Notes under the pieces: model-generated | Told to the model about the DNA's origin: nothing | Databases searched by the model: none | Seen by the model: the letters and a program-made list of their open reading frames with translations, nothing else | Position numbers and translations under genes: made by a program | Shown: positions 25,641-45,824 of the stretch, piece after piece | How the letters are laid out: every line of letters begins with the position of its first letter | How positions within the stretch are numbered: the stretch's first letter is position 1 | DNA from: Pseudomonas mendocina | GTDB taxonomy: Bacteria > Pseudomonadota > Gammaproteobacteria > Pseudomonadales > Pseudomonadaceae | Direction of reading: 5' to 3' | Assembly (NCBI GenBank): GCA_037482215.1 | Contig: CP148074.1 | Span: 124,001-188,000 of the forward strand | DNA length: 64,000 nt

Positions 25641-25656
25641 TGGCACTGCTATTGCT
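25641..25656 (+). promoter_or_regulatory. sigma-54 promoter of the fliD operon
   Basis: TGGCACTGCTATTGCT matches the -24/-12 consensus TGGCACGnnnnTTGCW at all but one fixed position, with exactly ten bases between the GG and GC. Transcription would start near 25667, leaving a leader of about 16 bases for the ATG at 25683 and making the earlier GTG at 25674 unlikely. Confidence 0.8.
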
Positions 25657-25682
25657 AAATCACAGAAAAATGGGTGTCGACT

Positions 25683-26987
25683 ATGGCTATTGATTCAGAT
25701 TACGTGCAAAGCATGGCCACGCAGTTGGCTCAGCTTGAAATTCAGGGGCAACTGACCAAGGCTCAGCGCAATGAGAGCAATTACAATGCGCAGCTGAAGG
25801 CCGTGACCTCCCTTGATTCTGCGCTGAAAAGTTTCAAATCAACGGCCAGTGGATTGAAAAGCACCAGCAGTGGCGGCTCGATGCTGGTCACCAGTGCTAA
25901 ATTCAGCCAAGAAGGTTATGCCACCGCAACCGTGAGCTCCAAGGCTGTAGAGGGCTCTTACGACTTCTTTGTCGCGCAACTGGCCAGCAAAAGTCAGATT
26001 GCCTTGTCGGGGCTGACTGATGCCGATATGGGCAGCGGCAGCCTGACCCTGGGTCAAAACGGCGAAACCTTCACCGTTGATATGTCGGGTGTTGCAACCC
26101 TAAGTGAGCTAGCGGCCGCTATCAATGGCGCTGCAGACAACACCGGTGTCAAAGCCTCGCTGGTGCGTAGCAATGGCGAGATCAATCTGGTTCTGAGCAG
26201 CGAAAAAACCGGAGCAGACCAGGCCATTAGCCTCTCTGCGTCCGGCAATGCAGCCCTGAGTGACGCGCTCAGCAACCAGACCGTGCTTAGCGAAGCGAAG
26301 GATGCCGAGGTTTATCTGGGGGGCGAAGGCGGCATCAAGCTGACCAGCACCACCAATACCTTCGAAAATATTATTGATGGCGTCAGCCTGACGTTCACCA
26401 AAGCACAGGCCAGTGGCGATACAGCCATCAGCCTTGAAGTTGCGCAGGACCAGAAGGCAACAAAGGAAAAGGCTCAGGCCTTTGTTTCCGCCTTCAACAC
26501 GTTGATGAGCACCTTCGATAGTCTGACCACCAGTGGTAGCGAAACCTCCGCCCGTGGCTCACTGGCAGGCGACAGCAGCGTGCGCGCGATTGAGAGCATG
26601 CTCAACAACCTGATTCGCACCTCTTTTGGCGGTGCCAGCTTGATTGACTTCGGTATTTCCGCTGACCGCAGCGGCAAGCTGACGATTGATGCCACGCGTT
26701 TTGAGAAAGCCATCACTGCTAACCCGGAAGGCTTCGACAAGTTGTTCACCGATAAGGGCAACTTGCTCGATACCCTCGACAAGAATCTGAATCTCTATAC
26801 CTCCAGTGCCAGTGGCGTGCTGACCAAGCGTAAAGACACGCTTAATACCCAATTGCGTCGTCTGGATACCGAGTACGACAACATCCAGAAGCAATACGAC
26901 AACTACTACAACCGCTACCTTCGTCAGTACACCAGTCTGATGCAGACCATGTCGTCGATGGAGCAGACTTCAGGGATGTTTGGATGA
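25683..26987 (+). CDS. fliD: flagellar filament cap protein FliD (LafB-type)
   Basis: Filament capping protein (HAP2) that promotes flagellin assembly at the tip, exported by the flagellar type III system. About 434 aa with the FliD N-terminal domain (roughly 1-100) and C-terminal domain (roughly 200-430: GVSLTFTKAQASGDTAIS, FGISADRSGKLTID, KRKDTLNTQLRRLDTEYDNIQKQYDNYYNRY). It is shorter and more divergent at the N-terminus than the polar FliD of pseudomonads. The ATG at 25683 was preferred over the GTG at 25674 because of the sigma-54 promoter position. First gene of an eight-gene operon; its stop overlaps fliS (ATGA). Confidence 0.93.
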   Translation: MAIDSDYVQSMATQLAQLEIQGQLTKAQRNESNYNAQLKAVTSLDSALKSFKSTASGLKSTSSGGSMLVTSAKFSQEGYATATVSSKAVEGSYDFFVAQLASKSQIALSGLTDADMGSGSLTLGQNGETFTVDMSGVATLSELAAAINGAADNTGVKASLVRSNGEINLVLSSEKTGADQAISLSASGNAALSDALSNQTVLSEAKDAEVYLGGEGGIKLTSTTNTFENIIDGVSLTFTKAQASGDTAISLEVAQDQKATKEKAQAFVSAFNTLMSTFDSLTTSGSETSARGSLAGDSSVRAIESMLNNLIRTSFGGASLIDFGISADRSGKLTIDATRFEKAITANPEGFDKLFTDKGNLLDTLDKNLNLYTSSASGVLTKRKDTLNTQLRRLDTEYDNIQKQYDNYYNRYLRQYTSLMQTMSSMEQTSGMFG

Positions 26988-27379
26988 GTTATCACCCCAA
27001 CGAAAGCTACGAAAACTACCGCTCTGTAGATTTAGAGTCGCGGGCTGCTGCTGCCTCGCCCTACGAGCTGGTGCTGGTGCTGTTTGACGGCCTGCTGGAT
27101 GAGTTAGCCCGTGCCCGTGGCCATATCGAAGCCAAGCGTTATCAACAGAAAGGCCAGTCGCTGGAGAAGTGCCTGAACATTCTCAACGGCCTGAACAGTG
27201 CGCTGGACTACGACGCAGGTGGTGAGACGGTGCAAAGCCTGTCGCGTTTGTATGAATACTGCATCTACCGGCTTTCTGATGTCAGCGTCAGTCTCTCATT
27301 GGAAGGCTTGGACGAGGTCGTCGGCTTGCTCAGCGTGTTGCGTGAAGGCTGGGAAGGTGTGAATGCCGCCAGGAAGTGA
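26984..27379 (+). CDS. fliS: flagellin export chaperone FliS (LafC-type)
   Basis: Cytoplasmic chaperone that keeps flagellin monomeric before export. The 131-aa four-helix protein has the conserved Tyr-rich N-terminus (YENYRSVDLESRAAAASPYELVLVLFDGLL) and the ending of the third helix with SLSRLYEYCIYRL. It overlaps fliD by four bases and the next gene by 17 bases, indicating translational coupling. Confidence 0.93.
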   Translation: MSYHPNESYENYRSVDLESRAAAASPYELVLVLFDGLLDELARARGHIEAKRYQQKGQSLEKCLNILNGLNSALDYDAGGETVQSLSRLYEYCIYRLSDVSVSLSLEGLDEVVGLLSVLREGWEGVNAARK

Positions 27380-27668
27380 GCTGCGTGCCTTGCAGGTGCT
27401 GCATGAGCAGCTCGCAGAGGCCTTTGCCAGTTCACAGTGGGAGCGTATCGGTGAAATTGATGCGCGCATCCGTACGTGCCTTGAGTTGCTGAATGGTTTG
27501 CCACACCTCAGCGCAGAAGTGCTCGAGGCCAGGCGGCGGCTTAAACACCTGCATGATGAAGTGCGGGTTGCCGGTGCTGAAGAGTGTGAGCGCCTGCGGG
27601 TGACATTGTTGCGTCATTTGGAATACGCCGAAGGGCGCAGCGCGTATATGCGCATCGATCAGTTTTAA
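27363..27668 (+). CDS. FliT-like flagellar chaperone (LafD position)
   Basis: A 101-aa all-helical protein in the position of fliT/lafD, overlapping the end of fliS. It has the size, charge and heptad-like pattern of FliT-type chaperones (LRALQVLHEQLAEAFASSQWERIGEIDARIRTCLELL) but little direct sequence similarity that I can see. FliT binds the FliD cap protein before export; that role here is inferred mainly from gene order. Confidence 0.65.
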   Translation: MPPGSELRALQVLHEQLAEAFASSQWERIGEIDARIRTCLELLNGLPHLSAEVLEARRRLKHLHDEVRVAGAEECERLRVTLLRHLEYAEGRSAYMRIDQF

Positions 27669-27675
27669 GCGGGAG

Positions 27676-28746
27676 TTGGTGAAGGTGTTGCAGTCGATCC
27701 ATTCAAATGCCGTCCAGGCCGCAGGCCCAGTGCCTGCAGAGGCCGTTGCAGCAAGCCCGCTGGAGCCGTCTGGTGAGCTGGCGCTCGCTTCATTTGGCCT
27801 GCAACTGGCGGTTGATGAGGTGGCAGCCGAGAGCTTACTCGTGGGTGATGCACAACCCCAAACTCAAGCGCAGCCCCTCCCCGTCGAGCCTGCAGTGATC
27901 GACGCTGAGCACTGGTTGAACAGTATGCTGCAGCAACAGGCTGCTCAAATTGAAGCCCGTGAGTCCGACCTACCCGCTACGCCGCTTCCCGAGCAGTCGT
28001 CCGCTGTGGTGGATGAACTGGCTGAGCTGCAGCTTGCCGCTGTGGTGCCGTCGCAGGCTGCAACTCAGCCGGATGCACGCGTCTGGCAATCGCTCGCAGC
28101 CCGTAACCCCGTACTCACTGGCAGTGAGCTTGCTTCACCGGCAGCAACGGCGAGCGCTGTGCTGCCATCAACCGCCGCGGTTATGACGGCTACCGGTGCT
28201 GCTTTGCTCACCACTCAAACCGCCGGTGAGTTGCCAGTAGCCACTTCGACGGATGCCGCTGTACTCAACGGCCTCTCGGAGGCGCCGCAGTCGCAGACTG
28301 CCCAGCTGCAATCGACCCTCAAGTTACACGCACCTCAGGCGCGTTGGGGGGAGCAGATGCTGCAAAGCCTGCGTGAGACGGTTGAGCTGCAAATTAACCA
28401 GCGTGTGCAAAACGCCACGATCCGCCTTGATCCTCCAGAGCTGGGAAGTCTGGAAATTTTCCTCAGCCATGAGGCCGGTCGAATCACCGTGCAGCTCTCG
28501 GCAGCCAACGCTGACGTGGCGCGCCTGTTACAGCAGACCAGCGATCGCCTGCGTCAGGAACTGGTGGCGCAGAACTTTGTGCAGGTCAACGTACAGGTCT
28601 CGGCCGACTCTCAGGGCGGCCGTCAGCAAGGACAAACCATGCAGCATCTGGCATCGCTGGATGAACAGGTACAGGCCCAAGTCGAGCCTGAGGCCGAGCG
28701 CACTAATCAGCAGGACTCTGCCAGCGATGTGCTGGTGACCGTATAA
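27676..28746 (+). CDS. fliK: flagellar hook-length control protein FliK (LafE-type)
   Basis: Molecular ruler that sets hook length and switches export specificity. About 355 aa, with a low-complexity Ala/Gln/Pro-rich N-terminal two thirds and the conserved C-terminal Flg_hook domain (about 225-320: ATIRLDPPELGSLEIFLS, ITVQLSAANADVARLLQ, LVAQNFVQVNVQVS). The frame opens with TTG at 27676 and GTG at 27679 or 27685; a GGAG site at 27672 fits the GTG at 27685 best by spacing. It follows the FliT-like gene by seven bases. Confidence 0.88.
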   Translation: MVKVLQSIHSNAVQAAGPVPAEAVAASPLEPSGELALASFGLQLAVDEVAAESLLVGDAQPQTQAQPLPVEPAVIDAEHWLNSMLQQQAAQIEARESDLPATPLPEQSSAVVDELAELQLAAVVPSQAATQPDARVWQSLAARNPVLTGSELASPAATASAVLPSTAAVMTATGAALLTTQTAGELPVATSTDAAVLNGLSEAPQSQTAQLQSTLKLHAPQARWGEQMLQSLRETVELQINQRVQNATIRLDPPELGSLEIFLSHEAGRITVQLSAANADVARLLQQTSDRLRQELVAQNFVQVNVQVSADSQGGRQQGQTMQHLASLDEQVQAQVEPEAERTNQQDSASDVLVTV

Positions 28747-28771: not shown

Positions 28772-29248
28772 ATGACCATGCCGCGGATTGTTGTCCTGTT
28801 GCTCATTCTCAACACGCTGGTGGTGTTGGGCGGTACCGCTGCCAACTACATGATGCTGCGCTCACTCAAGGGGGTGCATAGCACTGCTTCAGCAGATGTT
28901 GCCGGTGAGGCAGTGAAGGAGGAGGAAGAGGTCAAAGAGTATGGTTTTTTCCCCATCCCAAAGGTCATCGTTACCCTGAAAGGTAAGGATCGCGAGCACT
29001 ACTTCGTGCTGGATCTGGTGCTGCAAACTGATATCAAGGCTGACCAGAAAAAGCTCGCGCAGATTGACCCGATGGTACGTAGCTCGGTGGTCGCCAATCT
29101 GTCTGTAATGGACTACGACACCCTGCGCAACATGCCGATCGAAGAACTGCAACGTCGTCTCGAAACGGCAGTGATTGAAGATTTTTCCAGCAAGCACCTG
29201 CAGCGACCTTTCGAGCATGTGCTGGTCAGCAAGCTGATCGTGCAATAA
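28772..29248 (+). CDS. fliL: flagellar basal body-associated protein FliL (LafF-type)
   Basis: Single-span inner-membrane protein near the stator, supporting torque generation. The 158 aa start with a membrane segment (IVVLLLILNTLVVLGGTAANYMML), then a charged linker with a Glu-rich run and the periplasmic FliL domain (about 55-158: YFVLDLVLQTDIKADQKKLAQIDPMVRSSVVANLS). It lies between fliK and fliA, as lafF does in lateral systems, and close to motAB. Confidence 0.88.
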   Translation: MTMPRIVVLLLILNTLVVLGGTAANYMMLRSLKGVHSTASADVAGEAVKEEEEVKEYGFFPIPKVIVTLKGKDREHYFVLDLVLQTDIKADQKKLAQIDPMVRSSVVANLSVMDYDTLRNMPIEELQRRLETAVIEDFSSKHLQRPFEHVLVSKLIVQ

Positions 29249-29258: not shown

Positions 29259-29993
29259 ATGCACGCTCCGAGTCTGGACCAGCAAGGTTATGCCGCCGAA
29301 CAGGGCGGTGTGCCGCTGCTCGCGCCCGCTGCGGAGCAAAAGTGGATGCTGCAGTACCTGCCGCTGGTTAAGCGTATTGTCAGCCAGTTGGCCCTGCAAG
29401 CCAACGCAGTGCTTGATCGGGAGGATATGGAACAGATCGGTCTGATGGGGCTGATGGAGTGCTTGCGTCGGTACGGCACTCCAGATGAGCAGTTTGGACG
29501 TTTTGCTGCGCTGCGCATTCGTGGGGCCATCCTCGATGAATTGCGCCGTCAAGACTGGCGTCCGCGGCAGGTTCGGCAGCAGACCCATCGTATTCGCGAT
29601 GCCATCCGTGAGTTGGCGCGCAAGCTGGGGCGTGTGCCTCAGGATGAAGAAATTTTGGCCAGCACCGGGCTCAGCGAAAAGCAGTACCAGGACTTCCTTC
29701 AGGCTGATGCCTGTGAAGCCATTGAAAGCCTGGATGAACTGCTTAGTAGCGGTCAGGAGCACTTTGCTCAGGGCGGCAGCAACGTTGAAGAGCGTGTGCT
29801 TAAGGAGCGTCTGCTGACCCAGGCGCTCAGCCAGCTGAGCGAGCGTGAGCAACTGGTGTTGAGCCTGTATTACCAACACGAATTGAGCCTGAAGGAAATT
29901 GCTCTGGTGCTTGATCTGAGCGACGCCCGCGTCTGCCAGCTAAGCAAACAGGCTATTGCCAAGGCAAGTCGTTACCTGAACGAGAGAGGCTAG
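29259..29993 (+). CDS. fliA: flagellar sigma factor sigma-28 (FliA/LafS-type)
   Basis: RNA polymerase sigma factor for late flagellar genes. The 244-aa protein has region 2 (PLVKRIVSQLA, LDREDMEQIGLMGLMECLRRY, FGRFAALRIRGAILDELRRQDW), region 3 (VRQQTHRIRDAIRELARKLGRVPQDEEI) and region 4 with the helix-turn-helix HELSLKEIALVLDLSDARVCQLSKQAIAK. It lies inside the operon between fliL and motA, the place of lafS in lateral flagellar systems, rather than near fleN and the chemotaxis genes as in the polar system. No flgM anti-sigma gene occurs in the window. Confidence 0.95.
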   Translation: MHAPSLDQQGYAAEQGGVPLLAPAAEQKWMLQYLPLVKRIVSQLALQANAVLDREDMEQIGLMGLMECLRRYGTPDEQFGRFAALRIRGAILDELRRQDWRPRQVRQQTHRIRDAIRELARKLGRVPQDEEILASTGLSEKQYQDFLQADACEAIESLDELLSSGQEHFAQGGSNVEERVLKERLLTQALSQLSEREQLVLSLYYQHELSLKEIALVLDLSDARVCQLSKQAIAKASRYLNERG

Positions 29994-29994: not shown

Positions 29995-30867
29995 GTGCAG
30001 AAATTACTTGGAATCATGATCATCGTGGCGTGCGTGCTCGGTGGTTATTTGATGGCACAGGGGCAGTTGAGCATGCTCTGGCAGCCTGCCGAGTTGGTGA
30101 TCATCCTGGGGGCTGGTCTGGGCGCGCTGATTGTCGGCAACCCGAAAGAAGTCCTGATTGAGATGCTTACCCAAGTTAAGGGCGTTTTTGTCTACAAGCG
30201 TCGCGGTGAGGAGTTTCAACGGCAGCTGCTGATGTTGCTCTATGAACTGTTGGAGATGGTGGAGATCGGCGGTCTTAAGGTGCTCGACAGCCACATCGAA
30301 GAGCCTGAGCAGAGCGAGCTGTTTGCCAAGTACCCGCTGATTCGTCAGGAAAAAAACCTGATGGCCTTCATCGCGGACAACTTCCGCCTTATGGCCATGG
30401 GCAAGATCAGTTCCCATGAACTGGAGGGTTTCCTCGATCAGGAGCTTGAGGCCATGGAACACATTCTCCTGCAGCCTTCTCGCTCATTAAACAAAATTGG
30501 CGAAGCCATGCCGGGCTTCGGCATCCTGGCGGCGATTCTCGGCATCATCATCACCATGGGCAGTATTGGTGGCTCGGTGGCTGAGGTTGGTGCCCACGTG
30601 GCCGCAGCGCTGGTCGGTACTTTCATTGGTATTTTCATGTGCTACTGCGTGATGGAACCGCTTTCTAATGCCATGAGTCAGCGCATTAAAACCGAGCTGT
30701 CGGCGTTGGAATGCGTGCGCACCACACTGGTGGCCCATGTGGCGGGCAAGCCGACCCTGCTGGCGGTGGACGCTGGTCGAAAACTGATCGAGCAGGACGT
30801 AAAGCCTGCCTTCAAGCAGTTGGAGATCTGGGTAAACCGTTACGAGGATGAAAGGGACGCAGCATGA
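29995..30867 (+). CDS. motA: flagellar motor stator protein MotA (LafT-type)
   Basis: Ion-channel stator subunit of the flagellar motor, 290 aa, with four membrane segments. The first pair is near residues 1-50, the second pair near 165-220, with the conserved Pro-Gly in AMPGFGILAAILGIIITMG and a large cytoplasmic loop between that contacts the rotor. It starts with GTG two bases after the fliA stop and overlaps motB by four bases. The motA-motB pair at the end of the operon corresponds to lafT-lafU. Confidence 0.94.
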   Translation: MQKLLGIMIIVACVLGGYLMAQGQLSMLWQPAELVIILGAGLGALIVGNPKEVLIEMLTQVKGVFVYKRRGEEFQRQLLMLLYELLEMVEIGGLKVLDSHIEEPEQSELFAKYPLIRQEKNLMAFIADNFRLMAMGKISSHELEGFLDQELEAMEHILLQPSRSLNKIGEAMPGFGILAAILGIIITMGSIGGSVAEVGAHVAAALVGTFIGIFMCYCVMEPLSNAMSQRIKTELSALECVRTTLVAHVAGKPTLLAVDAGRKLIEQDVKPAFKQLEIWVNRYEDERDAA

Positions 30868-31826
30868 GAAAGCGCGGGTCCGACGGCCACGAAATTATTG
30901 TCAAACGGCGTGGCAAGAAGGGCCATGATGAGGCTCATGGTGGTGCCTGGAAGGTGGCCTTTGCCGACTTTACGCTGGCCATGATGGCGCTGTTCATGGT
31001 GTTGTGGATTGTTCAGCCGCGCCTTGATGTGATCAGCCAGTCCGATGGCTCTATCTCCAACCCAATCGTGGATGGCGGCATTGATATCTTCGATGGCAGT
31101 AGTGTGACGGTGTTGGAGCTGGATGGTGTGCCGGTACAGACTGCGCGTCGTGACGATGTCGCTAACACAGCAAAAAAACCTGAGGATAAGCAGTCAGAAA
31201 CGGTCTCAGACAAGGAGGCACCGGAGCTAACGGCGCAGCAGCTTGAGTTGCTGGAGCAGGTTCGTCCGTATTACGGAGAGCCGGGCCAAATGCGCGTGCT
31301 GGTTGAGCTGATGGACCAACTGGCGAAACAACTGAATGCCGAGGCCAATATCGAGGTTCAGGTGGTGCCGCAAGGGTTGAGAGTGTTGATCAAGGACGAC
31401 AAAGATCGCTTTATGTTCACCCGCGGTAGTGCCCGACTTGATCCTCACTTCGAGACCCTTTTGCAGCGTCTGGCAGGGATTCTCGGCAAAGTTGAAAACC
31501 ACTTGATCATCAGTGGTCATACCGATGCTGCACCCTATCGAGGTGTGGTCAATGGCTATAACAACTGGAACCTCTCAGGCGACCGCGCACTGCGCGCTCG
31601 TAATGTGATGGTGGCCGCTGGATTGCCCGCATCCTCCGTGCTGCAGGTGACAGCGCAGGCTGATGTAATGCCGCTGTTACCCGATGATCCAAGGAATGGC
31701 GCCAACCGGCGTATTGAGGTGCTGGTGCTGACCAGTCAGGCTGAAGGGCTCTACCGTGAGCTGTTTGGTGAAGGGCAGCTACGCGCTGACTTTAAAGGCG
31801 CCGAGAAAGCCACCCCCGCTCAATAA
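30864..31826 (+). CDS. motB: flagellar motor stator protein MotB (LafU-type)
   Basis: Stator subunit of 320 aa that anchors MotA to peptidoglycan and conducts ions. A basic N-terminus precedes one membrane segment (WKVAFADFTLAMMALFMVLWI) containing the essential Asp35. After a variable linker the OmpA-like peptidoglycan-binding domain spans about 170-300 (FTRGSARLDPHF, IISGHTDAAPYRG, NWNLSGDRALRARNVM, NRRIEVLVL). Last gene of the fliD operon; a stem-loop terminator lies in the short gap to the convergent ToxS-like gene. Confidence 0.95.
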   Translation: MRKRGSDGHEIIVKRRGKKGHDEAHGGAWKVAFADFTLAMMALFMVLWIVQPRLDVISQSDGSISNPIVDGGIDIFDGSSVTVLELDGVPVQTARRDDVANTAKKPEDKQSETVSDKEAPELTAQQLELLEQVRPYYGEPGQMRVLVELMDQLAKQLNAEANIEVQVVPQGLRVLIKDDKDRFMFTRGSARLDPHFETLLQRLAGILGKVENHLIISGHTDAAPYRGVVNGYNNWNLSGDRALRARNVMVAAGLPASSVLQVTAQADVMPLLPDDPRNGANRRIEVLVLTSQAEGLYRELFGEGQLRADFKGAEKATPAQ

Positions 31827-31884: not shown

Positions 31885-32346
31885 TGTTTCCGGGCAATAA
31901 ACCTGCTGGGTTTCTTCTGCATACAAGCAGCCATTGAGCTTGCGCAGCGTGATGGTCGAGCCCGGATTCTTGGCATACATCAGGTTGAAAACTAGCGAGT
32001 TATCAACCTCCGGGGTCAGGCTACTGACCTCACCCCTCTCGACGCGCAGTCTGAAGTTGCCGAAAAAGCCATGCTCAACCACCCCCGACGTTTCCAGGAT
32101 GCTGTCCCCTTGGCGGGTCATGCAGTAGAAGCGTCCATTGTGAATGCGCAGGTTGTGCGTCACCTCCTGCACCTGACCGTTGCTCAGCTGCACTTGTCCC
32201 GTCGCATGGTGGTAGCCATCAATCTCGGAACTTGAGCGAAAGAACAGGTACTGCGTGATGCAGATCGCCAGTAGTAACAGGCCCGTCAGTGCTGGAATCA
32301 GCCAGCGGGCGCGGCTCAGGCCGCCTCCGGTGCTCAAGAAAGGCAC
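31882..32346 (-). CDS. single-span membrane protein, ToxS-like partner of the ToxR-like regulator
   Basis: A 154-aa protein of unrecognised family. A short cytoplasmic N-terminus, one strong membrane segment (WLIPALTGLLLLAICITQYLFF, about 15-36) and a roughly 115-residue periplasmic domain with three Cys (near FYCMTR, NGCLYA and VYCPET). Its start overlaps the end of the upstream regulator gene by 13 bases, so the two are co-translated. Small effector partners of this kind (ToxS, TcpH) accompany ToxR-like regulators; the role here is inferred from that arrangement. Confidence 0.65.
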   Translation of the reverse strand: MPFLSTGGGLSRARWLIPALTGLLLLAICITQYLFFRSSSEIDGYHHATGQVQLSNGQVQEVTHNLRIHNGRFYCMTRQGDSILETSGVVEHGFFGNFRLRVERGEVSSLTPEVDNSLVFNLMYAKNPGSTITLRKLNGCLYAEETQQVYCPET

Positions 32347-33173
32347 CGGAGCAGCTGCGCGTCCTTGAGCAGGTTAAATTGGTTAATGTGGAACATGAGC
32401 GTGCGCGCCTGACCCTGGCTGCGTTGGCATACCAACTGGTAGTAACCCTGACGCTGAGTGAGTGTAAGGGTGATGGGTTGTGTATTCAGTGTGCTCAGGC
32501 GTGTGCTCAGCGCTTGGGTGTCAGACATGAGCTGCTCAAGACGCTGCGGCGATTGTTCAATGTAATGCATGTCGGCCATACCCAGCGTCACTTGATCTGA
32601 GTAGGTGGCGCCAGGTTGGCTGGCTGAGCTTAGCAGGGCAAACAAGCCGCTTCCCGCAGCCAGAACTCCAGCGAGCATGGCCGATATCCGCTTGCGGTTA
32701 AGCCTACGACCGTGATGCTGAGGCTGACTGGGTGCGATGGCCTGCGCGGGCTGCTCGTCGCTGTCGTTGGCCGACGCTGCGAGGTAGCCAGGGTTGATCT
32801 GGTATCCGCGGCGCGGCAGTGTCTGAATGATTTCGCGATTTTTTTCGTCGCCCAGTACTTGGCGCAACGTGTAGATCTGCTGATTCAGGCTGCCCTGGCC
32901 GACTACCCGGTCGGCCCAGGCGTAACTCATTAGCTCATCACGGGAGACGACTTCCCCAGGCACCTGCAACAGGCGCTCAAGCAAGCGGGTGCCAGAAAAA
33001 CCCAGGTCAATCTTTTCCGTGTGCTCACCTTGCACCAGCGTGAGTTGAAAAAGCGATGGGCTGAACAACGCATAGCAATCACTGCGACCGGTCTTGATCG
33101 TCAGGAAACTTGATGTTGCGGGATCAGCCGGAGGAGGTGCTAAGGAGGTGTTGAGACGATCTGGAAAGGACAT
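32334..33173 (-). CDS. ToxR-like transmembrane winged-helix regulator (LafZ position)
   Basis: Membrane-bound transcription factor of 279 aa. The cytoplasmic N-terminus holds an OmpR/PhoB-type winged helix (about 45-125: LLERLLQVPGEVVSRDELMSYAW, GSLNQQIYTLRQVLGD, IIQTLPRRGYQI). A single membrane segment follows (about 163-182, ISAMLAGVLAAGSGLFALL), then a periplasmic domain of about 95 residues with two Cys near the end. In the E. coli Flag-2 locus a transmembrane regulator gene, lafZ, occupies a comparable place next to the flagellin gene, so a flagellar regulatory role is likely. It forms a two-gene unit with the ToxS-like gene. Confidence 0.8.
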   Translation of the reverse strand: MSFPDRLNTSLAPPPADPATSSFLTIKTGRSDCYALFSPSLFQLTLVQGEHTEKIDLGFSGTRLLERLLQVPGEVVSRDELMSYAWADRVVGQGSLNQQIYTLRQVLGDEKNREIIQTLPRRGYQINPGYLAASANDSDEQPAQAIAPSQPQHHGRRLNRKRISAMLAGVLAAGSGLFALLSSASQPGATYSDQVTLGMADMHYIEQSPQRLEQLMSDTQALSTRLSTLNTQPITLTLTQRQGYYQLVCQRSQGQARTLMFHINQFNLLKDAQLLRCLS

Positions 33174-35280: not shown

Positions 35281-35296
35281 GGGCACGTTTTGTGCT
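35281..35296 (+). promoter_or_regulatory. sigma-54 promoter of the flgB-L operon
   Basis: GGGCACGTTTTGTGCT fits the -24/-12 consensus TGGCACGnnnnTTGCW with two mismatches and the required ten-base spacing between GG and GC. It lies in the 67-base gap between flgA and flgB, and would start transcription near 35308, 28 bases before flgB. Confidence 0.72.
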
Positions 35297-38033: not shown

Positions 38034-38765
38034 ATGGACCGTTTGGGTTACACCGCAATGAGCGCAGCCAGCCGCACCATGAGTTCGCTGACGGTGCGTG
38101 CTAACAACCTCGCCAACGTCAACACGCCGGGCTTCCGTGCCGACATGGAACAGGCCGAGAGCGTCTCGTTGGAAGGCTATGGCTACGACAGCCGGCATAT
38201 GGCTGTGGCGCGTAACAACGGCATTGATCTTACGCCGGGTGAGCTGATGGCGACCGGGCGTGAACTGGATGTGGCCATTCAGGGCGCAGGCCTGCTGGTG
38301 GTCGAAAATGCCGAAGGTGAAGAGCGTTACACCCGCCACGGTGCGTTACAGGTGGATGCTCAGCTGCGCCTGACCGTGAATGGCTTGCCGCTGATGGGTG
38401 AAGGTGGCCCGATCGTTCTGCCTGAATACGACCAGCTCAGCATCGGCCGTGACGGCACCGTTTCGGTGGTGCCGCGCGGTGATTACCTGACAGCCGAAGT
38501 TGACCGTATCCGTATGGTGGATGTGCCCGCCACCAACCTGACCAAAGACGCGACCGGCCTGCTCACCACGCTGGATGGGACGCCTGCGGCTGACGCTGAA
38601 AATGCGGTCTTGGCCAGCGGTTACCTGGAGGCCAGCAACGTGTCTTCAATTGACCAGTTGATGGCCACCATGAGCCTCAACCGCCTGTTTGAAACCCAGG
38701 TGAAAATGATGAAAGCGGCCGAGGATCTGTCCGAAGCCGGCAACCGCATGATCCGCGGCAGCTAA
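38034..38765 (+). CDS. flgF: flagellar proximal rod protein FlgF (LfgF)
   Basis: Rod subunit of 243 aa. It has the rod-family N-terminus (SSLTVRANNLANVNTPGFRADMEQA), the central GRELDVAIQGAGLLVVENAEGEERYTRHG and the C-terminal helix SIDQLMATMSLNRLFETQVKMMKAAED. It sits nine bases after flgE and 22 bases before flgG in the normal operon order. Confidence 0.94.
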   Translation: MDRLGYTAMSAASRTMSSLTVRANNLANVNTPGFRADMEQAESVSLEGYGYDSRHMAVARNNGIDLTPGELMATGRELDVAIQGAGLLVVENAEGEERYTRHGALQVDAQLRLTVNGLPLMGEGGPIVLPEYDQLSIGRDGTVSVVPRGDYLTAEVDRIRMVDVPATNLTKDATGLLTTLDGTPAADAENAVLASGYLEASNVSSIDQLMATMSLNRLFETQVKMMKAAEDLSEAGNRMIRGS

Positions 38766-38787: not shown

Positions 38788-39573
38788 ATGAGTTCGGCAT
38801 TGTGGGTCAGCAAAACCGGTCTGGCCGCCCAGGACAAAGCCATGGGCGCTGTGGCCAATAACCTGGCCAACGTCAACACCAAAGGCTTCAAGAGCGACCG
38901 CGTGGTTTTTGAAGACCTGTTCTATTCCATCGAAAAGCAGCCGGGTGCACAGGCTGATGAGATCAACACCGTACCTTCCGGCATTCAGCTAGGCAGTGGT
39001 GTACGCATTGCCGGTACGCAGAAAGTCTTCACTGAAGGCAACATCGAACCCACCGGCCAGCCGATGGATCTGGCCATTGTGGGCAGCGGCTTCTTTCAGG
39101 TTGAAGCGCCAAACGGTGACATCTACTACACCGAAAACGGTCAGTTTCAGCTGAACAACGAAAGCATGCTGGTCAATTCTCAGGGCCTGCCACTGGTGCC
39201 GGGGATCGAAGTGCCTGCGGGCAGCACTCGCTTTACCGTCGGTGCGGACGGCATCGTCACCGCTGTATTGCCGGGCGATAGCCTGCCCAGTGAACTGGGG
39301 CAGATCACTTTGGTGAACTTCACCAACCCCACTGGCTTGGAGGCGTTGGGCGGTAACCTGTACCGTGAGACCGCCGCCAGCGGTGAGCCTGTTGAGGGTG
39401 TGGCCGGTCAAGATGGCCTCGGCCAGCTCAAGCAAGGTGTATTGGAAGGTTCCAACGTAGAAGTGGTCGAGGCCATGGTCAATATGATCTCCATCCAGCG
39501 CGCTTATGAGGCCAATGCCAAGGTGCTGGATGCCGCATCCGGCATGCAGCAGTTCCTCAACCAGACGGTGTAA
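38788..39573 (+). CDS. flgG: flagellar distal rod protein FlgG (LfgG)
   Basis: Distal rod subunit, 261 aa, the usual length. Conserved features are DKAMGAVANNLANVNTKGFKSDRVVFEDLFY (about 15-45), QPMDLAIVGSGFFQVEAPNGDIYYTENGQFQ in the middle and GSNVEVVEAMVNMISIQRAYEANAKVLDAASGM at the end. The ATG follows an AGGAGA site. Confidence 0.95.
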   Translation: MSSALWVSKTGLAAQDKAMGAVANNLANVNTKGFKSDRVVFEDLFYSIEKQPGAQADEINTVPSGIQLGSGVRIAGTQKVFTEGNIEPTGQPMDLAIVGSGFFQVEAPNGDIYYTENGQFQLNNESMLVNSQGLPLVPGIEVPAGSTRFTVGADGIVTAVLPGDSLPSELGQITLVNFTNPTGLEALGGNLYRETAASGEPVEGVAGQDGLGQLKQGVLEGSNVEVVEAMVNMISIQRAYEANAKVLDAASGMQQFLNQTV

Positions 39574-39577: not shown

Positions 39578-40240
39578 ATGACCCGCCTGACTCTGCTTGC
39601 GCTGAGCCTGTTGCTCGGTGGCTGTGCCAGCTTCAACGAAATGCTGCCTGAAGAAGACTCCAGCCGTTATGAACCGCTGGAGTTGGACTACAGCCAGCCG
39701 CCGACTGTCAGTGGTGGGCTGTTCCGCAGTGGCTATGCCGGTTCGCTGATCAGCGACAAGCGCGCCGTGCGCGTGGGTGACATCCTCACCGTGGTGTTGG
39801 ATGAGTCCACCCAGTCGAGCAAGAGTGCAGGTACCAGCTTTGGTAAGAGCTCAAGCATCGGCATTGGCATCCCGACGATTCTCGACAAGCAGTTCGATCA
39901 GCTGAATACCCAGGCTGAGGCCGAGCGGGATTTTGATGGCTCGGCCAAAAGCTCGCAGCAGAACACCCTGCGCGGGGCCATCGCGGTCACTGTGCATCAG
40001 GTATTGCCCAACGGCACCCTGCTGATTCGTGGCGAGAAAGCCCTGCGCCTGAACCAGGGCGACGAATACATCCGCCTGGAAGGTCTGGTGCGCATGGATG
40101 ACATCAGCCGTGGCAACCGCATCTCCTCGCAGAATGTCGCCAATGCGCGCATCTCCTACGCCGGTCGCGGTGTGCTCAATGACAGCAACAGTGCCGGTTG
40201 GCTGAGCCGTTTCTTCAGCAGCCCGCTGTTCCCACTGTAA
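39578..40240 (+). CDS. flgH: flagellar L-ring lipoprotein FlgH (LfgH)
   Basis: Outer-membrane L-ring subunit, 220 aa, a lipoprotein with signal peptide MTRLTLLALSLLLGGCASF and lipobox LLGGC. The conserved FlgH core includes RVGDILTVVLDESTQSSKSAGT, LRGAIAVTVHQVLPNGTLLIRGEKAL and VANARISYAGRGVL. The open frame extends upstream into flgG, but the ATG at 39578, five bases after the flgG stop, is chosen because it begins the lipoprotein signal. Confidence 0.95.
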   Translation: MTRLTLLALSLLLGGCASFNEMLPEEDSSRYEPLELDYSQPPTVSGGLFRSGYAGSLISDKRAVRVGDILTVVLDESTQSSKSAGTSFGKSSSIGIGIPTILDKQFDQLNTQAEAERDFDGSAKSSQQNTLRGAIAVTVHQVLPNGTLLIRGEKALRLNQGDEYIRLEGLVRMDDISRGNRISSQNVANARISYAGRGVLNDSNSAGWLSRFFSSPLFPL

Positions 40241-40250: not shown

Positions 40251-41345
40251 ATGTTTCAACGTTTAATCCTTGCCTGCGCCTTGAGCTTTCCCCTGTCAGC
40301 GCTGGCGGTGCCGCTGATGGATTTGGTGGATGTCGAAGGCATCCGCGGTAACCAGTTGGTGGGCTATGGCCTGGTGGTGGGCCTGGACGGCACGGGTGAC
40401 AAAAATCAGGTGAAATTCACCAGCCAGTCCGTGGCCAACATGATCAAACAGTTCGGCATCAACCTGCCGGACAACGTGGATCCAAAACTGAAAAACGTCG
40501 CGGCTGTTAGCGTCACGGCCGACATTCCGCCTTCCTACAGCCCCGGTCAGACCGTAGATGTCACCGTCGCCTCATTGGGCGATGCCAAGAGCCTGCGCGG
40601 CGGCCAGTTGATGATGACCCCGCTGCATGGCGTGGACGGCGAAATCTACGCCTTGGCGCAAGGTGCAATCGTGGTTGGCGGGCTGAATGCCAGCGGCGCC
40701 AGCGGTTCCAGTGTGGCGATCAATTCTGCCAACAGCGGCCGCGTACCCAATGGTGCGACCGTGGAGCGGATGATCCCCACTGACTTTAGTGAGCGCCCTG
40801 ACGTCATGCTTAACCTGCGCGAGCCGAGTTTCCAGACTGCAACGCGAGTGGTCGAAGCGGTTAACCAGCGTTTTGGTATGGGCACCGCGACGGCGCTGAA
40901 TGCCACCAAGATTTCCTTGCGTGCCCCGCAGGCCAGCACTCAGCGCATTAGCTTTATGGCGATGCTCGAAGGGCTGGAGATTGCCGAAGGTCGTGAGCGG
41001 CCAAAGGTAGTATTCAACAGCCGTACGGGGACTGTTGTGGTGGGTGAAGGTGTGCGGGTTAAGGCGGCAGCCGTCAGCCATGGCAGCTTGACGGTGACGA
41101 TCAGCGAAACTCCGCAGGTTAGCCAGCCCAATGCGTTTTCTCAGGGGCAGACCGCTGTGGTGCCGCGCTCTGATGTAGAGGTCGCGCAAGACCGCAACGG
41201 CATGTTCCGCTGGCCGGAAGGGGCGAGCCTGGACAGCATCATCAACACGGTGAACAGCCTGGGCGCGACCCCAGATGATGTGATGAGCATCCTTCAGGCC
41301 CTGGAGCGTGCGGGTGCCCTTAATGCTGAATTGATTGTGATCTGA
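40251..41345 (+). CDS. flgI: flagellar P-ring protein FlgI (LfgI)
   Basis: Periplasmic P-ring subunit of 364 aa with a cleavable signal peptide (MFQRLILACALSFPLSALA). Conserved segments include DVEGIRGNQLVGYGLVVGLDGTGDK, VAAVSVTADIPPSYSPGQTVDVTVASLGDAKSLRGG and the C-terminal DSIINTVNSLGATPDDVMSILQALERAGAL. Assembly would use the FlgA encoded upstream. Starts 11 bases after flgH. Confidence 0.96.
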   Translation: MFQRLILACALSFPLSALAVPLMDLVDVEGIRGNQLVGYGLVVGLDGTGDKNQVKFTSQSVANMIKQFGINLPDNVDPKLKNVAAVSVTADIPPSYSPGQTVDVTVASLGDAKSLRGGQLMMTPLHGVDGEIYALAQGAIVVGGLNASGASGSSVAINSANSGRVPNGATVERMIPTDFSERPDVMLNLREPSFQTATRVVEAVNQRFGMGTATALNATKISLRAPQASTQRISFMAMLEGLEIAEGRERPKVVFNSRTGTVVVGEGVRVKAAAVSHGSLTVTISETPQVSQPNAFSQGQTAVVPRSDVEVAQDRNGMFRWPEGASLDSIINTVNSLGATPDDVMSILQALERAGALNAELIVI

Positions 41346-41347: not shown

Positions 41348-42463
41348 ATGAGCATTGTTTCTTTCACGCAACACCTCGGCACGCAACGTGCGGGCTCCGA
41401 CACCATCAGCCGCGCCCGCGAGCAGAAGTTGCAACTGGCCGCCGAGCAATTCGAAGCGCTGTTCCTGCAACAGATCCTCAAGCAGATGCGCAAAGCCAGC
41501 GACGTGCTCAGTGACGGTAACCCCATGCGCAGTCGCGAACTGGACAGCATGCGCGATTTTTACGATCAGGCACTGGCTGACACCCTGTCCAAGCGTAAGC
41601 AAACCGGCATTGCCGATATGCTGGTGGCGCAGTTATCCCCAGGCGCCCTGCCCGATTACGAGGCTGCTGCCCTGGCCGCCCGCGAGGCCGAACTGCCTGC
41701 TCGCACGGCCACCAGCTTCCAGGAGCCGATACGCAGCACGTGGCAGCGGAGCCGCAGCGAATCGCCCTGGCCTGTTGCGCAGGCGGCTAATGAGCCGGTG
41801 GATTTCAAGTCGCTGGTGCAGCGCGTGATCAATCAAGAGTCTGATGGCCGGGTGGATGCTGTGTCACCAAAAGGTGCCTTGGGCCTTATGCAGCTGATGC
41901 CTGGTACGGCACAAGACATGGCGGCAGAGCTGGGCATTGAGTTTGATCAGGCCCGTTTGACCACTGATGCCGACTACAACATGCAGCTGGGTACGGCGTA
42001 CCTGCAGCGTATGTTGCAGCGCTACGACGGCAGCCCAGCGCTGGCCTTGGCGGCCTATAACGCAGGCCCGGGTAAAGTGGATGAGTGGCTGCAGGTCAAC
42101 GGTGACCCGCGTACGGGCGAAATTGGCGAGCAGGCCTGGATTGCGCGTATCCCTTATCAGGAAACCCGGGACTACGCCCGTAAGATTCTTGCTGCTATGG
42201 ATGACGCCGACGCACCGGCCCGCGAGCAGGCCGCCGTGCAGCGCGCTGAGTCTCAGCAGCGACTGGCCAGCGCCCTGAGCGCCGACAGCGGTGTGTTGTT
42301 GAGCAACCTCGCCAGCCAACAGTTAAACCTGCCGCTGCAAACAACCCTTAAGTCTGACGCCAGTCGTGTCGCCTTAAATTCAGTAACACGTGAATTATCT
42401 GCTGAAGGCGACGCTGCTGCGCGCCTTCCGGCGTTTGCTCAGCCTGTTCGGCTTGAGCGTTAG
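41348..42463 (+). CDS. flgJ: FlgJ-type rod cap with a C-terminal SLT lytic transglycosylase domain (LfgJ)
   Basis: Rod-scaffold protein of 371 aa that also opens the peptidoglycan. The N-terminal rod-cap domain is FlgJ-like (about 25-95: AAEQFEALFLQQILKQMRKA, LDSMRDFYDQALADTL). The C-terminal catalytic domain (about 152-290) is not the usual GH73 glucosaminidase of FlgJ but an SLT/GH23 lytic transglycosylase: catalytic Glu164 in VINQESDGRVD, then PKGALGLMQLMPGTAQD and LALAAYNAGPGKVD. A further tail of about 70 residues has no recognised domain. Located normally between flgI and flgK. Confidence 0.9.
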   Translation: MSIVSFTQHLGTQRAGSDTISRAREQKLQLAAEQFEALFLQQILKQMRKASDVLSDGNPMRSRELDSMRDFYDQALADTLSKRKQTGIADMLVAQLSPGALPDYEAAALAAREAELPARTATSFQEPIRSTWQRSRSESPWPVAQAANEPVDFKSLVQRVINQESDGRVDAVSPKGALGLMQLMPGTAQDMAAELGIEFDQARLTTDADYNMQLGTAYLQRMLQRYDGSPALALAAYNAGPGKVDEWLQVNGDPRTGEIGEQAWIARIPYQETRDYARKILAAMDDADAPAREQAAVQRAESQQRLASALSADSGVLLSNLASQQLNLPLQTTLKSDASRVALNSVTRELSAEGDAAARLPAFAQPVRLER

Positions 42464-42474
42464 GAGAGTCCGTT

Positions 42475-43842
42475 GTGAGCATCCTCAGTCAGATCGCCTA
42501 TAGCGGTGTGCGCGCCAACCAAGCCGCACTTGCCAGCACCGGGCAGAACATCGCCAACGTCAACACACCGGGCTTCAGCCGTCTGCAAACTCTGACCGCA
42601 TCACTGTCCGGCCAGGGTGGGTTGAGCGTGGGGGGCGGGGTTGAGGTCACCAGCATCCGCCGCATGACCAACGACTTTCACAATCAGCAATTGTGGCGAG
42701 CGACCACCGAGCAAGAATATTACAGCGCGTCCCAGCAATACCTGACTTCGCTGGAAACCTTGATGGCAGGCGACGGCTCAAGCATCAGTGTGGGCCTGGA
42801 TCAGTTCTTTGCGGCTGTCAGTGAAGCCAGTGCCACGCCAAGCTCCATCGCCCTGCGTCAGCAGATCATCAGCGAAGCGGGCAACCTCGCCCAGCGTTTC
42901 AATGTGCTGAACAGCAACATCGACGCTCAGATCAAAGCCCTGCAAGAGCAGCGCGTGGCAATGGCCACTGAAGTTAACGGTGTGACCGCCAACATCGCCC
43001 TGCTGAACAAGAAAATCATCGAAACCGAATCAGTCCAAGGTGACAGCTCGGCACTGCGTGATCAGCGCGAGAGCCTCATCGGACAGCTCAGCCAATACGC
43101 CAAAATTCGCGTTAACGAAACCCCGGACGGTTCGATCACTGTCGCCATGGCCAATGGTCAGCCCTTGGTCGCCGGGCCTACCGCTGCACAGCTCACCGTC
43201 ACGCCTACTGCCAGCGGCGAGCAAGACATCAGCCTGAGTTTCGCGGGCACGCGGTTCAACCTGCGCATGGACGGTTTTGGTGGCGCATTCGGTGGTCTTT
43301 ACGACGTTGAGTACCAGAGCCTGCGGCCTAACCAAGAGGCCCTGCACACCATGGCGTCTGGTCTGGCGCAGATGATCAACGATGCCTTGGGCAATGGCTA
43401 TGACCTGGCAGGTAACCCAGGCCGCGCGCTGTTCTACTATGACCCCAGCAGCACCACGGGCATGATCAGCGCGGAGAACTTAACACCGGAGGAGCTGGGC
43501 TTTTCTTCCTCCGTCGGTGAGAGCGGTAACAACGAAGCCTTGCTGGCATTGCTGGAGCTGAAGAACAGCACCATTACCCTGCGCGGCAGCCAAGTCAGTG
43601 TTAACGATGCCTATGCAGGCCTACTGGGCCGTGTGGCCAGCGACAGCCGCCAGAATCAGGCTGACCTGAACTCGGCCACCACCGTTACACAGCAGGCCCA
43701 GGCACAGCGTGACAGCGTCAGTGCAGTAAACCTCGATGAAGAGGCGGTCAACTTGATGACCTATCAGCAGGCCTATCAGGCCAACATGAAAGTCATCACC
43801 ACCGCTAACCAACTTTTTGAAGACATGCTGGCCGCGTTCTGA
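42475..43842 (+). CDS. flgK: flagellar hook-associated protein FlgK (LfgK)
   Basis: Hook-filament junction protein HAP1, 455 aa. The N-terminus (ALASTGQNIANVNTPGFSRLQTL) and C-terminus (VNLDEEAVNLMTYQQAYQANMKVITTANQLFEDMLAAF) are the conserved family ends. The protein is short compared with polar FlgK proteins of Pseudomonas, which have large inserted domains. It begins with GTG at 42475 after an AGGAG site. Confidence 0.95.
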   Translation: MSILSQIAYSGVRANQAALASTGQNIANVNTPGFSRLQTLTASLSGQGGLSVGGGVEVTSIRRMTNDFHNQQLWRATTEQEYYSASQQYLTSLETLMAGDGSSISVGLDQFFAAVSEASATPSSIALRQQIISEAGNLAQRFNVLNSNIDAQIKALQEQRVAMATEVNGVTANIALLNKKIIETESVQGDSSALRDQRESLIGQLSQYAKIRVNETPDGSITVAMANGQPLVAGPTAAQLTVTPTASGEQDISLSFAGTRFNLRMDGFGGAFGGLYDVEYQSLRPNQEALHTMASGLAQMINDALGNGYDLAGNPGRALFYYDPSSTTGMISAENLTPEELGFSSSVGESGNNEALLALLELKNSTITLRGSQVSVNDAYAGLLGRVASDSRQNQADLNSATTVTQQAQAQRDSVSAVNLDEEAVNLMTYQQAYQANMKVITTANQLFEDMLAAF

Positions 43843-43865
43843 CGCGCCCTTGTGAGAGCTGAATC

Positions 43866-44783
43866 ATGATGCGGATCACTAACGCGCAGATTACTGCGAT
43901 GATGCACAACTCGATGAATACCAATTCGGCCGAGCTGGGCAAACTCATGCAGCAGATGGCCACTGGTCAGCGCATCATGGTGCCTTCCGACGACCCGATT
44001 TCAAGTGTGCGCGTGCTAAGGGTTGAGCGCGAAGAGGCGAGTGTTCAGCAGTACATCAAGAACATCGCCAACGTCTCCAGCAGCCTGTCGGTACAAGAAA
44101 CCAATCTGACCTCAACCTCCGATGCCCTGCTGAATGTGCGTGACATCCTGCTCTGGGCCTCCAATGGTAAGAACTCCGGGGATGACCTCGCCTCGATGGC
44201 GACCGAGCTGGAGATCATTGAGGCGACGATTTTCAGCTTCGCCAATGCCCGTGACGAAGAAGGGCGCTACCTGTTTTCCGGCACGATCAGTGACACCCCA
44301 GCACTGACCTACGATGCCGCTACACAGACATACAGGGTAACGGGCAATGACAAGCATCGTCAGGCGGCAGTCGCGAACGGTGTGCTGGTGGACGAGAACG
44401 TCACCGCTGTGGAGATTTATGGCAACAACGCCGAGATGCTCAATCAACTACACGGATTGATCGCCAGCTTGAAGACCCCTGGCGTGCAATCCAATGATCC
44501 CGCGTTGCGCCAGCAGTTGACCGACACCCTGGCTGCGCTGGATGCGAGCCACAATCGAGTGTTAGGCTCCATCACCGAACTGGGTGGGCGGCAAAATGCC
44601 CTGGAGCTGCTCAACAGCAGTAACGAGGAAGTGTCGCTGGTGAATCAAAAGATCGCCCGTGAGCTTTCCGAGCTGGATTATGCCGGTGCCACCATCGACC
44701 TCAATAACTACCAGTTGGCTTTGAATGCGACGCAGAAAACGTATCTGAAGATCAATGAAATGTCGTTGTTCAGCCTGCTGTAA
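43866..44783 (+). CDS. flgL: flagellar hook-associated protein FlgL (LfgL)
   Basis: Junction protein HAP3, 305 aa, related to flagellin at both ends: MRITNAQITAMMHNSMNTNSAELGKLMQQMATGQRIMVPSDDPISSVRVLRVE at the start and LSELDYAGATIDLNNYQLALNATQKTYLKINEMSLFSLL at the end. Starts at 43866 or 43869 are adjacent in-frame ATGs. It precedes the lafW-like gene by nine bases. Confidence 0.94.
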   Translation: MMRITNAQITAMMHNSMNTNSAELGKLMQQMATGQRIMVPSDDPISSVRVLRVEREEASVQQYIKNIANVSSSLSVQETNLTSTSDALLNVRDILLWASNGKNSGDDLASMATELEIIEATIFSFANARDEEGRYLFSGTISDTPALTYDAATQTYRVTGNDKHRQAAVANGVLVDENVTAVEIYGNNAEMLNQLHGLIASLKTPGVQSNDPALRQQLTDTLAALDASHNRVLGSITELGGRQNALELLNSSNEEVSLVNQKIARELSELDYAGATIDLNNYQLALNATQKTYLKINEMSLFSLL

Positions 44784-44792
44784 GGAACACTT

Positions 44793-45824
44793 ATGGTCAT
44801 CAAGGTTGATAAGCAGCTGCCCGCAGCGGGAGCCATAGCCCCGCAAACACGCCGCACGCCGGTTGCGTTGCCACCTCGCAGCAATCGCGCTCACGCTGCC
44901 AGCGCGCCTCAGGTGCAGCCGCAGAGCAACAGTAAAAGCGCGTCGTTCAGCTTGCAGCTTAACCAGCAGCTGACGTCGATGCAGGCTGCTGATAACTACC
45001 TGGGTGACCTGCAAGCACGTCTTGGCCAGCTCAAATTGCGCCTGAGTCGCGACTTGGGCAACAGCCAGTCAAGCCCTGCCGCTCGCGAAGAGTTGGAAGC
45101 TGAAATGCAGGCTGTGCGTGAGCTGCTCGCTGAGCGCAGCCAACGCAGTGCGCAGTCTTTGGATTCACGTCTGCGCCTGTCATTGAATGAACCGGTACGC
45201 AGCCGATTCACCCTGCAAGGGTTTGACTCCATCGAGCAGGTTCAACAAGCCGGTAAGGAAACCTTGCTGTTCAGCGCCGGACGCAAACTCGCTGAGCCTT
45301 TGGCTGTGGTGCTGGATGAAGGCCTCACCGAACAGCAGATTTTGCGCCGCTTCAACAATGGCTTGAGCCCTGCAGGTATCCGCGCTGAACTGGATGCTGG
45401 CGGGGAGCTGAAATTCAGTGCCCGTGAGTCAGATTGGTACGCGATTAAGGATGAGCTGCGGGTTCAGGGTGAAGGCAAACTGGCTGAAAAGACAGCCGCT
45501 TATGTTGCCAGCGAAGAAGATCAGTTGCTGCGTTTGCCTGCCGCCACCCAGCTTGATGGGGCCCGTGATTTGCGCCGTGTGCTGGATCAGGTGGTAACGT
45601 CCTTGGACCGCATCACCGCTCTGCGCGAACAGCTTGCTCAGCGCCAGGATGAGGTCCGCGAGTTTCTTGCCCGGCATACGGATGAGAACGAGCAGCAGTG
45701 GGCCAGCGCGTTTGCCGGTGAAGTCTTCCATCTGTTGCGTGGCAACAACTACGGCGCGTCGGCACAAACCGTTGTGGCCCAGTCCACCATCAGCCGCTAC
45801 ACCGTAGTCAGCTTGCTCTCATAA
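44793..45824 (+). CDS. LafW-like protein of lateral flagellar loci
   Basis: A 343-aa protein with no domain that I recognise directly. The first 60 residues are Pro/Ser/Gln-rich and flexible; the rest is mainly helical, with a strong coiled-coil stretch (about 60-125) and a second helical part near 245-300. No signal peptide or membrane segment, so export by the flagellar system would be the route if it is secreted. In E. coli Flag-2 and Aeromonas lateral clusters the gene after lfgL is lafW, described as a putative hook-associated protein; the position here is the same. The role is therefore inferred from context. Confidence 0.6.
   Translation: MVIKVDKQLPAAGAIAPQTRRTPVALPPRSNRAHAASAPQVQPQSNSKSASFSLQLNQQLTSMQAADNYLGDLQARLGQLKLRLSRDLGNSQSSPAAREELEAEMQAVRELLAERSQRSAQSLDSRLRLSLNEPVRSRFTLQGFDSIEQVQQAGKETLLFSAGRKLAEPLAVVLDEGLTEQQILRRFNNGLSPAGIRAELDAGGELKFSARESDWYAIKDELRVQGEGKLAEKTAAYVASEEDQLLRLPAATQLDGARDLRRVLDQVVTSLDRITALREQLAQRQDEVREFLARHTDENEQQWASAFAGEVFHLLRGNNYGASAQTVVAQSTISRYTVVSLLS

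Follow-up and report, generated by a model that had tools for sequence, protein, structure and literature searches.

A lateral-type flagellar locus of Pseudomonas mendocina appears to be one half of a complete Flag-2-type system and carries a candidate LafZ-OrfX sensor pair

The genome of Pseudomonas mendocina (GenBank assembly GCA_037482215.1) is composed of a single contig (CP148074.1) of 4,757,970 bases (4.76 Mb), of which a stretch of 64,000 nucleotides (contig bases 124001-188000, hereafter the window) was analysed. Positions 25674-45824 of the window (locus A) hold a series of flagellar genes, and the question they raise is to which kind of flagellum they belong. The original prediction, made from the sequence alone, took them for a lateral rather than a polar set and left two alternatives, a system split over at least two loci or a partial set dependent on the export machinery of the polar flagellum. 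Our analysis indicates that locus A is very probably one half of a complete lateral (Flag-2-type) system, in a Pseudomonas host that also has an ordinary polar flagellum. The split was borne out, as the second locus (locus B) was found elsewhere in the genome, and the partial set was not. From these genes we infer surface induction and lateral filaments.

A search of the genome with FlhA returned two copies. In all, the genome holds two FlhA, two FlgE and further flagellins, so that locus A is not its only flagellar locus. Locus B lies outside the window around the second flhA, about 340 kb from locus A if the contig is circular, and has flgN, flgM, fliJ, fliI, fliH, fliG, fliF, fliE and lafK on one strand and fliM, fliN, fliP, fliQ, fliR, flhB and flhA on the other. 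This is the second flhAB-fliPQR-fliEFGHIJ-lafK set that the original prediction had proposed to search for, and the parts it had noted as missing from locus A are absent there and located elsewhere in the genome. The lateral system has its own export apparatus, MS ring and C ring, all encoded in locus B, as well as its own sigma-28, FlgM and stator. Besides the rings, locus B contributes the export gate and ATPase, together with FlgM, FlgN and the sigma-54 activator LafK. The rod, hook, P and L rings, junction proteins, filament and cap are encoded in locus A, as are sigma-28, the stator and LafZ. The FliM of locus B is divergent, with no NCBIfam hit at 1e-8 and a Pfam match to FliMN_C. The polar set is separate from both loci, with rod and hook genes at 1.65 Mb, a flagellin at 1.67 Mb, a FleQ-domain regulator at 1.68 Mb and flhA at 3.08 Mb.

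The lateral assignment is carried by phylogenetic analysis. In a tree of six proteins (FlgC, FlgE, FlgF, FlgG, FlgH and FlgI; 22 sets), the lateral set of P. mendocina groups with those of 16 chosen relatives, Vibrio campbellii and Escherichia coli Flag-2, while its own polar set, E. coli Flag-1 and a plasmid set of P. silesiensis fall on the opposite side (support 100). Over the same columns its identity is 55% with E. coli Flag-2 and 45% with its own polar set. The FlhA tree likewise separates 30 lateral sequences, which are monophyletic, from 30 polar ones, and in both trees the genes fall outside the polar clade of the genus, in agreement with the lateral type originally proposed. With the lateral FliH model NF009925 (cut-off 192), the protein of P. 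mendocina reaches 295 bits and that of E. coli Flag-2 317 bits, and the cut-off of NF005286, exceeded by FlgE of locus A, is also passed by FlgE of E. coli Flag-2 and V. campbellii. The genes lafK, lafW and lafZ, named as distinguishing markers of Flag-2 (PMC6993521; sources here and below are cited for the portions of their text that were available), are all present, their products sharing 53%, 29% and 34% identity with their E. coli Flag-2 counterparts.

Searching with FlgE we identified 69 distinct named lateral loci, a list that may leave out records of the window's own genome. Nearly all are from Pseudomonas or Stutzerimonas, and the other hosts are Cellvibrio, Saccharophagus, Alkalilimnicola, a metagenome-assembled genome (MAG) of Lysobacteraceae and other MAGs. 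Each of 31 genomes chosen from these loci has a lateral FlhA (75-97% identical) and a second, more distant FlhA, which is in one piece in 28 (48-51% identical) and in pieces in three. In the genome of Stutzerimonas stutzeri RM2, polar FlhA is matched by two distinct open frames, whereas lateral FlhA is intact; a sequencing error is likely, because several other RM2 genes also match in pieces. Of the genomes sampled, 22 of 398 from the genus, 53 of 198 from the family (in 8 of 19 genera) and one of 229 from the class scored above the NF009925 cut-off, the own genome being included in each sample and the only positive in the last. The class-wide result speaks against a widespread system, and since that sample is spread over 196 genera it says little on Vibrio or Aeromonas.

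The gene order of the lateral loci is the same across relatives. Among 20 stretches around the lateral flhA, one of which was cut short and excluded, flgN is followed directly by fliD in 14 of 19, so that both halves form one cluster. The halves do not adjoin in Pseudomonas sp. TTU2014-080ASC, Pseudomonas sp. 8Z, P. mendocina, P. thermotolerans and, close to the end of its contig, P. citronellolis. Because the halves adjoin in most of the informative stretches, the split into two loci looks derived. In the nearest named relative, TTU2014-080ASC (FlgE 95% identical), the lateral flgE and flhA share a contig at a distance of about 331 kb, and locus A has the same flanks as here. In the P. mendocina group (loci L024-L037), neither lafA nor the laf operon adjoins the flgA-flgL-lafW block, and the system therefore seems to be in three pieces there.

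These data bear on three other explanations of the locus. A partial set, with the hook and filament parts of locus A exported by the polar apparatus, would agree with locus A taken alone, which has no export apparatus, C ring or FliE/F. It is now highly improbable, and at the level of gene content the finding of locus B rejects it: locus B holds a full second set (fliE-J, fliMN, fliPQR, flhBA, lafK and flgMN) whose relatives and order match, and all 31 genomes examined have a lateral FlhA along with the lateral FlgE. A second flagellum of the FlhDC type, like that of P. fluorescens F113 and Azotobacter, has the merit of being a documented second flagellum of a pseudomonad (PMC5031763), but is barely credible here, since the tree separates the genes from those of E. 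coli Flag-1 and of the P. silesiensis plasmid set (40% identity) and a LafK-type activator is present. The F113 type is rejected by the six-protein tree, in which its stand-in, the P. silesiensis plasmid set, which may not be the F113 island, groups with E. coli Flag-1.

We also consider it improbable that this strain has a complete gene set but a cryptic or decaying system, of which the split would be a first sign. Such decay would fit the separation of halves that adjoin in most relatives, the 376 of 398 genus genomes below the lateral cut-off, and the F113 second flagellum, which is cryptic in the laboratory (PMC5031763). However, all lateral genes are open, and TTU2014-080ASC has an identical split between identical neighbours; because it is kept there, the split has been stable through some divergence. 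A complete lateral system in two parts is thus the reading that we retain.

Within locus A, the end of lafZ is overlapped by orfX, a gene for a membrane protein of 154 amino acids. The original prediction had passed over orfX, as it had the lytic transglycosylase domain of FlgJ described below. LafZ has a ToxR-like DNA-binding domain (best PDB match, the DNA-binding domain of ToxR, E 2.5e-11) in a membrane-anchored factor, its membrane segment being judged by eye. Relatives of OrfX were found in 28 of the 69 lateral loci, and two cysteines are invariant in the 24 sequences aligned out of 29 (some frames were misread by the script). Accepting any ATG, GTG or TTG start, orfX begins 1 nucleotide upstream of the C-terminal cysteine codon of lafZ in 23 of 29 pairs, the own pair among them, and an overlap of the partner's start with the C-terminal cysteine codon of the factor is described for co-component pairs (PMC9214523). 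The model of OrfX is a predicted lipocalin-like beta-barrel (predicted local distance difference test score, pLDDT, 82), whose best matches in the PDB are VtrC and then, among others, ToxS; the four top Foldseek rows are all VtrC. Given this predicted likeness to VtrC and ToxS, lafZ would belong to a ToxR/ToxS-like sensor pair, and LafZ-OrfX is probably such a pair.

Several observations weigh against this pairing. No Foldseek match of OrfX reaches an E value of 0.001 or better, a designed beta-barrel ties with ToxS in Z score, orfX is missing beside lafZ in six of 34 readable relative loci, and the lafZ of E. coli Flag-2 has no orfX partner. Together with the fact that lipocalin-like barrels are common, they would suit a LafZ that acts alone, OrfX being an unrelated small membrane protein with a coincidental fold. 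We regard this as unlikely, though worth weighing, as it leaves aside the position of the orfX start in most pairs, its agreement with the described co-component overlap and the run of VtrC matches. For the ToxR/ToxS-like pair we infer a sensor role: LafZ and OrfX would form a membrane sensor, and the binding of a small hydrophobic ligand in its periplasmic barrel may set lateral gene expression. An overlapping VtrC-like pair is mentioned in a P. fluorescens (PMC9214523) and flagellum synthesis is listed among the responses of YqeI/YqeJ (PMC10269533); no co-component inside a flagellar cluster was found in the available text of these two papers or in matching literature.

Two further parts of the lateral system vary consistently. 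FlgJ is fused to an SLT lytic transglycosylase domain in 67 of the 69 lateral loci, and the FlgJ of locus A falls below every NCBIfam FlgJ cut-off because of this unusual second domain. The cell wall would accordingly be opened by a lytic transglycosylase in place of the glucosaminidase of the polar FlgJ. The CheY-binding motif is absent from all 21 lateral FliM and present in the single polar FliM examined; lacking it, the lateral motor, which would be turned by LafT/LafU, probably does not answer chemotaxis.

The evolution of the lateral genes was compared with that of polar FlhA and RpoB. FlhA was searched for in 31 of the 69 named loci and RpoB in 29 of these plus the own genome. The first comparison of FlhA and RpoB trees covered 28 genomes and the three-way comparison 27 (25 Pseudomonadaceae and two Cellvibrionaceae); left out were P. 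otitidis (no lateral FlhA stretch), Alkalilimnicola (RpoB in two pieces), two MAGs (RpoB) and Stutzerimonas RM2 (broken polar FlhA). Median tree distances between Pseudomonadaceae and Cellvibrionaceae, against those within Pseudomonadaceae, are 0.351 versus 0.297 for lateral FlhA, 0.607 versus 0.202 for polar FlhA and 0.416 versus 0.112 for RpoB. Among the 25 Pseudomonadaceae, FlhA distances correlate with those of RpoB (r 0.47 lateral, 0.58 polar; none of 5000 permutations reached either value). A single clade of 18 Pseudomonadaceae was rejected by the approximately unbiased (AU) test with eight lateral proteins (24 sets, 2156 columns; p 0.0003, or p 0.0013 with a quick tree search). On the distances and the AU test we reject the view that Pseudomonadaceae inherited the lateral set by vertical descent alone; they indicate vertical descent within the family mixed with transfer between families, and, unlike polar FlhA and RpoB, the lateral genes appear to have passed from one family to another. 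These trees use one substitution model and a distant root (E. coli, Vibrio), and several deep branches are weakly supported. Loss of old duplicates is an alternative source of the same signal.

The named genes of locus A are all open and in the order originally described, to which orfX is added: fliD-S-T-K-L-A-motA-motB on the forward strand, orfX, lafZ, lafA and flgA on the reverse strand, and flgB to flgL with lafW again on the forward strand (table 1). Pfam cut-offs are exceeded by FliD, FliS, FliK, FliL, sigma-28, MotA, MotB, the ToxR-like winged helix, flagellin, FlgK and FlgL, and NCBIfam cut-offs by FlgA to FlgI. The Pfam search gave no significant family for FliT and LafW, which are named from their position and relatives. 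The predicted structure of LafW has a flagellin/FlgL-like fold and its model matches flagellins and FlgL; a sequence search for solved relatives of LafW gave none that was significant. The lateral flagellin and FlgK are compact, as had been noted, with 295 and 455 amino acids against 526 and 682 in the polar open frames. Two lafA matches are adjacent in six of the 69 lateral loci, which suggests tandem lateral flagellins. The flanks are unrelated genes, again as expected: on the left, immediately before the fliD operon, a LuxR-type response regulator whose gene overlaps that of a histidine kinase, both kept in TTU2014-080ASC, and an M20 peptidase on the right. At the limits used, the peptidase was found in three and the kinase in two of 24 relatives, the own genome included in both, which is too rare for a comparison of empty sites to be informative.

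Table 1. Coordinates of the flagellar features of P. mendocina and of their neighbours. Positions refer to the window unless otherwise indicated; ORF, open reading frame.
Feature	Position	Strand	Basis or remark
Response regulator (LuxR-type) and overlapping histidine kinase	22933-25433	+	
Putative sigma-54 (-24/-12) site upstream of fliD	25641..25656	+	11/12 consensus positions
fliD (lafB)	25674..26987	+	Pfam FliD_N, FliD_C; likely start ATG 25683
fliS (lafC)	26984..27379	+	Pfam FliS
fliT-like (lafD)	27363..27668	+	Position; kept in relatives
fliK (lafE)	27676..28746	+	Pfam Flg_hook
fliL (lafF)	28772..29248	+	Pfam FliL
fliA, sigma-28 (lafS)	29259..29993	+	Pfam sigma-70 regions 2, 3, 4
motA (lafT)	29995..30867	+	Pfam MotA_N, MotA_ExbB; 65% identity with E. 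coli Flag-2 MotA
motB (lafU)	30864..31826	+	Pfam MotB_plug, OmpA
orfX, 154 amino acids	31882..32346	-	Relatives; overlap with lafZ; predicted fold
lafZ, ToxR-like membrane transcription factor	32334..33173	-	Pfam Trans_reg_C; PDB match ToxR
lafA, lateral flagellin, 295 amino acids	33369..34256	-	Pfam Flagellin_N, Flagellin_C
flgA	34456..35268	-	TIGR03170 above cut-off
Putative sigma-54 site between flgA and flgB	35281..35296	+	10/12 consensus positions
flgB	35336..35689	+	TIGR01396 above cut-off
flgC	35692..36120	+	TIGR01395 above cut-off
flgD	36120..36797	+	NF007198 above cut-off
flgE, hook	36831..38024	+	NF005286 514 bits, cut-off 467
flgF	38034..38765	+	NF009280 above cut-off
flgG	38788..39573	+	TIGR02488 above cut-off
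flgH	39581..40240	+	NF009072 above cut-off from ORF residue 26; listed ORF begins at 39506
flgI	40251..41345	+	NF003676 above cut-off
flgJ fused to SLT lytic transglycosylase domain	41348..42463	+	Pfam Rod-binding, SLT
flgK	42475..43842	+	Pfam FlgK_D1, Flg_bbr_C
flgL	43866..44783	+	Pfam Flagellin_N; position after flgK
lafW, hook-associated	44793..45824	+	29% identity with E. coli Flag-2 LafW
Locus B	contig bases 4553589-4568111 (L003 3589-18112)		Around second flhA; outside the window
flgM	L003 4029-4313		Locus B

Regarding expression, LafK with sigma-54 would drive the fliD and flgB operons, and FliA, which FlgM would hold back until completion of the hook, would drive the late genes, the product being side filaments made on surfaces. 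Scoring against the sigma-54 (-24/-12) consensus identified a putative site 17 bases upstream of the annotated fliD ORF and a second one between flgA and flgB. The fliD upstream region scores at least 10 of 12 in 13 of 16 relative stretches (internal control 0 of 16), and that of flgB in 29 of 69 relatives, never reaching 11 (internal control 0 of 69). Because relatives keep sites at the same places, a role of LafK at both operons is plausible, and the kept positions are partly due to shared ancestry. Against this scheme, the three sigma-54-like sites in the locus are a number within chance (shuffle mean 0.81, maximum 4), no sigma-54 site was found upstream of lafK or fliM in the scan of the own genome and relatives, nor one upstream of lafA, and no sigma-28-like site above shuffle level lies upstream of lafA here (34257-34456, reverse strand) or in 43 relatives. 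The promoter scheme is therefore only partly backed.

Old reports describe lateral flagella in P. stutzeri and P. mendocina; the lateral genes offer a genetic basis for them and open the surface motility of these species to gene-by-gene tests. The system is of a known kind, lateral Flag-2-type flagella, with several consistent variations, in a host group for which the literature searched does not describe it, as the matches listed included no paper on lateral flagellar genes of Pseudomonas. Lateral-type genes are present in about a quarter of the sampled family genomes, yet the F113 system is the one second flagellum that a 2021 review of Pseudomonas flagella mentions in its available text. 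The input to lateral flagella is usually taken as mechanical. LafZ-OrfX, as a candidate receptor pair, could place a lateral flagellum under the control of a chemical signal. We tentatively put forward the possibility that the lateral flagella of Pseudomonadaceae are a mobile cross-family module with its own LafZ-OrfX switch, in which a hydrophobic periplasmic signal, beyond contact or slowed polar rotation, would decide on building, and which, with a lytic transglycosylase FlgJ and a chemotaxis-deaf motor, would form a distinct sub-type.

Among known systems, E. coli Flag-2 shares the gene set, including lafK, lafW and lafZ, and the clade (FlgE 50%, FliI 71% and LafK 53% identical). It differs in being in one locus, in having the laf operon after lafW and not upstream of flgA, in an FlgJ with the rod-binding domain only, and in a lafZ without an overlapping partner gene. 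The lateral locus of V. campbellii also has flgA divergent from flgB-L and belongs to the same clade (FlgE 50% identical); in contrast to P. mendocina, its FlgJ of 182 amino acids has no SLT domain and no lafZ or lafW match was found in its 41 kb stretch. The own polar (FleQ) flagellum has core parts homologous to the lateral ones in a separate clade, with a glucosaminidase FlgJ and a FliM that carries the CheY-binding motif, where the lateral FlgJ has SLT and the lateral FliM no such motif. The second flagellum of F113 is likewise an extra flagellum in a pseudomonad, but it is FlhDC-controlled, island-borne and forms a polar tuft (PMC5031763), and the lateral genes stand apart from its stand-in. 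Finally, VtrA/VtrC and ToxR/ToxS resemble LafZ-OrfX in the ToxR-like DNA-binding domain, in the overlap at the C-terminal cysteine codon and in a lipocalin-like periplasmic partner, as predicted for OrfX, whereas LafZ-OrfX, unlike either pair, is encoded within a flagellar cluster.

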